DNA of 34,383 nt from a virus, in IMG/VR virus record IMGVR_UViG_3300007735_000651, positions 1-34,383 of that record; one strand, given 5' to 3'. The notes beneath the pieces are model-generated. The model was not told the origin of the DNA and ran no database searches. It was given only the letters and a program-made list of their open reading frames with translations. Shown here piece after piece: positions 33,501 to 34,383 of this stretch. A program made the position numbers and the translations under genes. How positions within the stretch are numbered: the stretch's first letter is position 1; every line of letters starts with the position of its first letter.

Positions 33501-33776
33501 TTAAAAAATGTTGTTGGCTAAACCGTTGATGACAAACCCAACGCGCTTGGCGCTGGGCGGCTCATAACCGGCACGTTCTTTGACGCACTGATAGACGTAC
33601 TTAAATGCTGCTTTGGAAATGTCGTAAGTAATGTCCAGTTCGCCGCATTTGACAAACACGTCAAAGTTCCCGTCTGTGTCCCAATCGTCACCGTCATACC
33701 AAGTCCATTCAATCGTGACTTCACCGTAGTTATTTAGGTATTCCTCAAAAGTGCCTTGTTCGCCATCGTTCAGCAT
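33501..33776 (-). CDS. Small acidic early protein
   Basis: A 91-aa acidic protein with aromatic/acidic strands (EWTWYDGDDWDTDGNFDVFVKC, near 23-44). Its high negative charge and small size are features of DNA-mimic inhibitors, although many unrelated early proteins look like this. It overlaps the first gene of the leftward operon by seven bases. No family recognised. Confidence 0.72.
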   Translation of the reverse strand: MLNDGEQGTFEEYLNNYGEVTIEWTWYDGDDWDTDGNFDVFVKCGELDITYDISKAAFKYVYQCVKERAGYEPPSAKRVGFVINGLANNIF

Positions 33777-33892
33777 GATGCCCTCCAGACTAAAACGTCA
33801 AGAGCGACCACCACAATGGCGGCTATGGATACCGCATACAGGGCGACTTGCGCCCAATCGGTCGGTTTTTTGTAGGTTTCTATGTCAAACAT
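33770..33892 (-). CDS. Small membrane protein, first gene of the leftward operon
   Basis: A 40-aa protein with a good AAGGAG seven bases before ATG 33892. The N-terminus is hydrophilic (FDIETYKKPTDWAQ), followed by one hydrophobic helix (VALYAVSIAAIVVVALDVLVW). It is the first product of the leftward early transcript. The helix suggests an inner-membrane peptide acting at the start of infection. No family recognised. Confidence 0.68.
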   Translation of the reverse strand: MFDIETYKKPTDWAQVALYAVSIAAIVVVALDVLVWRASC

Positions 33893-34038: not shown

Positions 34039-34194
34039 ATGACTAAACAAGACATTATCAAATTGGCAGGCTCACAGGCTGAGCTTGCTAAGTTACTCAA
34101 GGTAAGCCGATCAGCGGTTTGCCAATGGAAAGCCGTGCCAGAGCTGCGGATGCGGCAATTAAAAGATTTAAGACCCCAGTGGTTTACAACTTAA
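34039..34194 (+). CDS. Cro-like (YdaS/Cro-family) repressor
   Basis: A 51-aa helix-turn-helix protein. Residues 12-30 form the DNA-binding motif (SQAELAKLLKVSRSAVCQW), followed by PELRMRQLKDLRPQW, which is the usual short C-terminal segment of Cro/YdaS proteins. The message appears leaderless, since the ATG lies where transcription should start and no ribosome site precedes it. TTGTTAAG-type sites lie in its own promoter region and between the -35 and -10 of the next promoter, so I infer autorepression and control of the rightward operon. No CI partner is encoded. Confidence 0.82.
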   Translation: MTKQDIIKLAGSQAELAKLLKVSRSAVCQWKAVPELRMRQLKDLRPQWFTT

Positions 34195-34210
34195 CAAAAC
34201 TATGTATAAT
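34183..34210 (+). promoter_or_regulatory. Main rightward promoter
   Basis: -35 TTTACA (34183-34188, five of six) and -10 TATAAT (34205-34210, perfect) with a 16-base spacer. The -35 box is within codons of the cro-like gene. It is the best promoter by eye in the window and drives the structured RNA and probably the whole rightward operon. Confidence 0.8.
34190..34197. promoter_or_regulatory. Putative operator in the promoter spacer
   Basis: CTTAACAA, the exact reverse complement of TTGTTAAG, between the -35 and -10 boxes of the main rightward promoter. A protein bound there would block RNA polymerase. Confidence 0.55.
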
Positions 34211-34215
34211 CACAA

Positions 34216-34378
34216 CCGTCTAGAGTGGCATCTGGACGTAGACGGAAATCGGAGAACCCTACAGATACCTGTGCGGTCTTGTCAGACGACAAACGAACTT
34301 TTGATTTCCGTCATACGTTTTGTTGTTGCTCTCGCCAAGAGCCAAGACCGCAGAGAGATTTGTAGGGTTTTTGCTTTT
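34216..34378 (+). ncRNA. Pseudoknotted leader RNA of the rightward operon
   Basis: Expected transcription starts near 34217. Helix A: 34236-34250 pairs with 34303-34312 plus 34314-34318, 15 base pairs with one bulged A. Helix B: 34253-34266 pairs with 34358-34371, 14 pairs with two wobbles. Helix C: TGCGGTCTTG (34272-34281) pairs with CAAGACCGCA (34343-34352), ten perfect pairs. Hairpin D: GCTCT (34328-34332) with AGAGC (34338-34342), directly abutting helix C. A crosses B and C, so together they form a pseudoknot. A short 5' hairpin CCGTCTA (34216-34222)/TAGACGG (34239-34245) shares bases with A and must open for it to form. T-runs at 34368-34372 and 34375-34378 follow helix B. No known RNA family is recognised. 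It may be a stand-alone RNA of about 155 nt or a cis-acting leader. Confidence 0.72.
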
Positions 34379-34383
34379 GGACA
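34257..34383. repeat. Right copy of the 127-bp terminal direct repeat
   Basis: Exact copy of bases 1-127; see the left copy. Because this copy continues an intact upstream sequence, the structured RNA is contiguous only here. Confidence 0.9.
34358..34378 (+). terminator. Possible intrinsic terminator closing the leader RNA
   Basis: The 3' arm of helix B (34358-34367, ending GTAGGG) is followed by TTTTTGCTTTT (34368-34378). The partner arm lies about 100 nt upstream, so this is not a simple local hairpin; termination would depend on the pseudoknot fold. It resembles tR' of lambda by position, about 155 nt after the promoter. Confidence 0.5.

Follow-up and report, generated by a model that had tools for sequence, protein, structure and literature searches.

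Phage early-operon leaders are the place where antitermination and RNA-based immunity were discovered. Lambda 6S RNA, the product of the pR'-tR' arrangement, is a short, terminated transcript from a late promoter ahead of a long operon, with dependence on Q. In the P4 CI and P1 C4 RNAs, which are phage leader RNAs with separate target sites, the specificity of pairing determines immunity. IsrK of the Salmonella prophage Gifsy-1 exists both as a short form ended by a terminator and as a read-through mRNA form, and the short form acts on the translation of that mRNA (PMC4825925). The put RNA of HK022 comprises about 70 nt in two stem-loops, is present in two copies and binds the beta' zinc-binding domain (PMC9378689), while GOLLD and ROOL are elaborate phage RNAs that contain pseudoknots and kissing loops (PMC12286853). 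Here we describe RNA-1, a pseudoknotted leader RNA of about 160 nt that ends in a T-run.

The window, by which we mean the whole analysed stretch of 34,383 nucleotides, is a circular virus contig from IMG/VR that comprises 34,256 distinct bases and a 127-base exact terminal repeat (1-127 equal to 34257-34383). We take 127 bases to be the size of a common assembler k-mer, and the contig probably represents an entire circular genome opened within RNA-1. Given this circularity and the terminal repeat, the + strand copy of 34257-34378 found at 1-122 does not represent a second RNA-1, and the candidate at 1-127 was rejected as assembly overlap. RNA-1 itself occupies 34216-34378 on the + strand, downstream of a predicted sigma-70-type promoter (34183-34210, +; TTTACA at 34183-34188, 16 nt, TATAAT at 34205-34210) that carries 11 of the 12 consensus letters and whose -35 hexamer overlaps the end of a P22-Cro-like gene (51 aa, 34039-34194). 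Among the rightward genes examined past RNA-1 are a replication-initiation-like gene, NinB, terminase, portal and holin; upstream, the opposite strand carries Erf-like and exonuclease genes. The sequence agrees in this respect with the original prediction, which had placed the element behind a TTTACA-16-TATAAT promoter, with a T-run at its end and ahead of the rightward operon. Positions 1745-2922 hold a queuine tRNA-ribosyltransferase-like gene followed by a gene of the Vut_1 family, which we take to be queuosine-precursor transporter-like; the two are a possible base-modification pair in a phage.

Each of the described systems resembles this locus in part. Like lambda 6S RNA, RNA-1 separates a phage promoter from a long operon, but it stands behind cro and before the replication genes. 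The int-alpA RNA (RF02996) stands in this place, behind the Cro-like gene, in two related loci (L011, 3166-3232; L020, 247-313) as another leader type; it measures 71 nt, has another fold and finds no match in the window. GOLLD and ROOL are several hundred nt longer and often near tRNA islands. As originally predicted, the fold matches none known: at the gathering score none of 4,227 Rfam 15 families matched the window, a permissive search returned a chance match only (E 4.9), and 14 further loci covering type II, remote RNA-1 and other downstream RNAs gave no Rfam match either. The absence of an Rfam match separates RNA-1 from lambda 6S, IsrK, P4 CI, P1 C4, GOLLD and ROOL alike. With put it shares the character of a structured RNA near the promoter in the early leader of lambdoid-type phages, in a cis position between cro and the replication genes, and by analogy the transcript could stay on RNA polymerase so that terminators in the 30-kb operon are ignored. 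We regard such an antiterminator as improbable: RNA-1 is 153-168 nt long rather than about 70, pseudoknotted, present in one copy rather than as putL and putR, ended by its own terminator-like T-run and without common structure (PMC9378689). The likeness drawn in the original prediction is therefore not supported past position, and length, copy number and ending exclude put as a family, although not as a way of working.

Across type-I relatives, RNA-1 is built from five helices, a pseudoknot and a kissing contact, and in the window all of its parts lie on the + strand. The 5' hairpin P1 (CGTCTAGA/TCTGGACG, loop GTGGCA, 34217-34238) sits at the expected promoter start point and carries in its loop UGGC (34226-34229), the 5' side of kissing contact K. 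The 5' arm of helix A follows (GACGGAAATC, 34241-34250), and then a long hairpin whose base abuts the T-run (TTTTTGCTTTT, 34368-34378, directly after helix B). This hairpin consists of B (CCCTACAGAT, 34257-34266, with ATTTGTAGGG, 34358-34367), C (TGCGGTCTTG, 34272-34281, with CAAGACCGCA, 34343-34352), and then D (CGACAAACG, 34287-34295, with CGTTTTGTTG, 34316-34325) together with hairpin E (GCTCT-CGCCA-AGAGC, 34328-34342), in which GCCA at 34334-34337 forms the 3' side of K. The 3' arm of A (GATTTCCGTC, 34303-34312) lies within the loop of D, and the 5' domain contacts the top of the long hairpin via helix A and, from the P1 loop, via K. RNA-1 is a pseudoknot because A crosses B and C. Helix A, originally described as 15 bp with one bulge, does exist, with 10 Watson-Crick pairs or 14 counting wobbles, whereas the extra length represents an extension into P1 and D; likewise A, B and C had been found, but P1, D, E and the P1-E kissing contact had been missed. 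The folding energy, computed with the pseudoknot left out, gave z = -6.4, and none of 200 shuffles folded as well.

We evaluated this structure on 63 diverse type-I RNAs, using a MAFFT alignment made without structure; an RNA-1 model matches the window with 161 bits. Over the full pseudoknotted structure 96.9% of pair cells hold standard pairs, both sides have changed in 28 of 56 pairs, and the covariation score is 0.310, compared to 0.137 +/- 0.004 after shuffling and 0.05-0.08 with partners slid by 1-3 columns. None of 500 shuffles reached the observed paired fraction, both-side-change count or covariation score. Support is strong for P1 (99.4% of cells paired, both-side changes in 5 of 8 pairs), B (97.3%, 6 of 10), D (95.1%, 5 of 9) and A, whose columns 31-34 show 3-4 Watson-Crick types per pair with both-side changes in 24 to 37 of the 63 RNAs. 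It is weak for C (99.7%, two pairs with both-side changes) because C hardly varies, and E hardly varies either. Using the window structure as template somewhat favours the unslid structure, but the arm-swap test is independent of that choice: the A arms of one RNA pair over 11.6 bp on average, compared to 7.1 bp for arms swapped between RNAs, with the proviso that covariation cannot separate intramolecular from intermolecular pairing. The case for a first helix crossing the other two is thus stronger than originally claimed.

Contact K, the pairing of UGGC in the P1 loop with GCCA in the E loop, is invariant in the 63 RNAs, which for this reason neither support nor oppose it. In four deep relatives (L006, L201, L073 and L035), read by eye, it is longer or different yet complementary, with GUGGCAUCA/UGAUGCCAC in L073, UUGGCGG/CCGCCAA in L035 and UGGCG/CGCCA in L201. 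A second sequence type of RNA-1, type II (76 RNAs), has the same architecture; its P1 loop carries the 5' arm, and in 75 of 76 RNAs this arm and the main-hairpin apex pair over 7 bp or more, as against 9% of swapped pairs.

The same alignments bear on whether the selected molecule is RNA at all. Inverted repeats and an adjoining replication-initiation-like gene would suit a fold acting as DNA, as an origin, packaging or recombination hairpin, but paired columns hold 293 G.U cells and 34 A.C cells, which indicates + strand RNA as the selected molecule, and the distance from the promoter is fixed; we consider a DNA role highly improbable. We give next to no credence to a small leader protein (MYNHNRLEWHL...) with the structure as its by-product. 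A coding ORF was first suggested by a simple count of ORFs overlapping RNA-1, and in 62 of 107 relatives, counting the window, frame +1 indeed runs through RNA-1 without a stop, with the corresponding stretch annotated as a CDS in one GenBank phage. Against this, early stops break the frame in 45 of the 107, the length is not divisible by three in 31, the frame end is not conserved, substitutions outside A fall on codon positions 1/2/3 as 211/411/346 with no third-position preference, and coding leaves the pairing of two hypervariable arms unexplained. Two outcomes that the original prediction had named as telling against it, a lack of compensatory changes among relatives and conservation that follows codons, have both failed to appear: the compensatory changes are abundant and the conservation does not follow codons.

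RNA-1 occurs in many uncultured aquatic phages. A search with the Cro-like protein led to 80 viral loci, many of them with an RNA-1 whose helices are quite different yet complementary, and DNA-pattern scans of IMG/VR recovered type-I RNA-1 in at least 119 stretches and type II in at least 120; among the matches listed, we extracted 107 distinct type-I RNAs and 76 type-II RNAs. The window and 10 matching phage contigs, each 32-37 kb long, have one sense-strand site apiece, and antisense matches of the RNA-1 model reflect its inverted repeats. Among 50,697 phage records RNA-1 appeared in one metagenomic record alone, and no cultured phage in the collection searched carries it. Plasmids and named phages likewise held none with the exception of MW202484.1, a GenBank phage from a spring metagenome that carries type II. 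There, positions 33533-33892 (L212, 3023-3382) hold an RNA-1 of type II together with the structured RNA that follows it, under the annotation of a hypothetical protein, a CDS that is probably misannotated RNA. A prophage search run without a positive control found RNA-1 in 0 of 399 genomes of one bacterial order.

Helix A is hypervariable. When we compared 146 pairs of RNAs identical between the A arms, 25 had the A core in common and nearly all of the others differed in both arms, and RNAs at least 97% identical outside A have on average 56% of the A core in common. Column entropy is 1.05 bits in the A core, 0.07 in helix C and 0.04 in helix E. The 107 type-I RNAs contain 55 combinations of A5 and A3 cores, and locus L003 encodes a Cro-like protein 100% identical to that of the window next to a different A word. 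Selection for private pairing, allele exchange or template switching at inverted repeats could each account for this variability, and template switching could copy changes from arm to arm without selection for specificity.

Both ends of RNA-1 are fixed in place. The -10 hexamer ends 3-5 nt before the RNA-1 start in all 106 type-I RNAs scored, 74 of which match TATAAT at 6/6 positions, and with this spacing RNA-1 should start with P1. At the other end, the 12 nt after stem B contain 8-10 T in 107 of 107 type-I RNAs (of these T, the first four were imposed by the search pattern) and 7-11 in the 76 type-II RNAs, and the T-run stays with RNA-1 whatever is downstream. Stems B and C provide about 20 bp followed at once by a U-rich tract, as in an intrinsic terminator. 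In place of the short loop (3-8 nt) of such a terminator, stem C encloses about 61 nt (D, A3 and E), and a simple terminator scan did not list the site. Where type-I loci have a next ORF of at least 100 aa, it lies on the same strand in 89 of 96, at a median of 280 nt past the T-run.

We propose that RNA-1 is a promoter-proximal attenuator, a detachable module heading the phage early operon, and judging by its sequence, position and fold we put the probability of this reading at roughly 45%. Most transcripts would end at the T-run, releasing a compact product of about 160 nt with both ends protected, and some would read through into the next leader RNA and the operon. Helix A could form first during transcription, and since A must coexist or compete with the terminator stem, binding of one A arm would alter the share of read-through. 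Given that both A arms change together while the rest is fixed, A may serve as a private address that pairs with the phage's own RNA and avoids RNAs of co-infecting relatives. The working model is nearest, by analogy, to IsrK with its terminated short RNA and read-through form, from which RNA-1 differs in that no similarity to it was found. Against an attenuator stands the stem-enclosed region, which is far longer than in ordinary intrinsic terminators.

Closer inspection of the folds suggests how A might relate to the terminator stem. Minimum-energy folds of the growing window transcript contain A between nt 95 and nt 140 and B-C-D-E once nt 150 is reached, and the forced end-state folds are nearly equal in the window (-68.6 vs -68.8 kcal/mol). 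Over 106 relatives, however, the terminator fold has a mean advantage of 7.9 kcal/mol over the A-only fold, so an equal-energy switch between A and B/C holds in the window but is not general. A and the terminator stem can coexist because the 3' arm of A lies within the D loop. Due to the advantage of the terminator fold, we read A as a tertiary lock or contact and not as a classical competing switch.

What follows RNA-1 varies. At least five different structured leader RNAs occur behind it, common to type I and type II, and the combination of one copy per genome, no Rfam match and these different followers marks RNA-1 as an independent module. In the window a second conserved structured leader RNA, RNA-2, lies directly behind (123-345 on the + strand, ends approximate), with at least three covarying helices (129-134/149-154, 164-169/187-192 and 194-197/213-216) and an invariant segment, AUGCGGUACGUC, that served as search pattern. 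The RNA-2 core is found in at least 119 IMG/VR stretches, and RNA-2 has no Rfam match. In three loci (L090, L105 and L194) the sequence 5' of RNA-2 is not recognisably RNA-1. The RNA-2 slot holds at least four more highly structured leader classes (L226, L277, L236, L212, L219, L241 and L286), again without an Rfam match; those of L236, L212, L219 and L241 seem to have a common 3' domain. When host genomes were searched, the ten exact-core matches in the species-genome collection included no true RNA-2: they are unlike RNA-2 around the 18-base core, and most fall within protein genes.

This modularity would also suit a stand-alone trans-acting small RNA, with operon read-through incidental and with C, E and the P1 loop binding a host or phage protein or RNA. 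RNA-1 moves as a unit independent of downstream sequence, has a near-consensus promoter, a 5' terminal hairpin and a T-run at fixed places, and its C and E helices are near-invariant, as for a binding site. We nevertheless think it unlikely, since RNA-1 heads a co-directional operon in 89 of the 96 loci, the approximately 15 nt to RNA-2 are too few for a second promoter, and no targets were found; a search for additional targets of the A arms in 1.1 Mb, covering parts of the phage contigs, gave 9 own-word matches where 11.3 were expected, which is not above chance.

Strict complementarity combined with extreme allelic diversity also invites comparison with RNA-based immunity or incompatibility, in which the A arms of the terminated RNA would pair with the nascent leader of a relative that has the same A word and force termination, as the P4 CI and P1 C4 RNAs do in their own systems. 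The different A alleles beside an identical Cro-like gene fit this analogy. Unlike for P4 CI and P1 C4, no separate target site in cis was found in the parts of the phage contigs covered; RNA-1 was absent from the 399 genomes of one order (again, no positive control), the species-genome collection yielded no true RNA-2, and no integrase was seen among the ORFs examined, in which the Cro-like gene, Erf and the exonuclease were found. We regard immunity as quite unlikely. Helix A could more generally act as an RNA self/non-self label, the leader recognising only RNA that carries an identical A word, whether in cis or in another molecule; this idea is speculative and we do not expect it to hold. 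The promoter-proximal attenuator remains the best explanation, for which reason we file RNA-1 with the terminator-ended phage leader RNAs.

RNA-1 appears to be a new RNA family, and the literature searched, which left out most subscription journals, contains no description of it. This phage leader RNA is common in IMG/VR and absent from Rfam, and covariation gives its pseudoknot strong support. Together with the several further structured RNAs, modular RNA-1 brings several unstudied RNA classes together in a single region. The strict complementarity and hypervariability of helix A raise the question of whether pairing specificity between phage RNAs is under diversifying selection. If the self-label idea were true, co-infecting relatives would not cross-regulate, and the label would diversify under selection while the surrounding machine stayed fixed; if shown, such a label would be categorically new. 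Combined with interchangeable structured RNAs, it would mean that phage early operons have a modular control region made of RNA alone, of a kind not described before.
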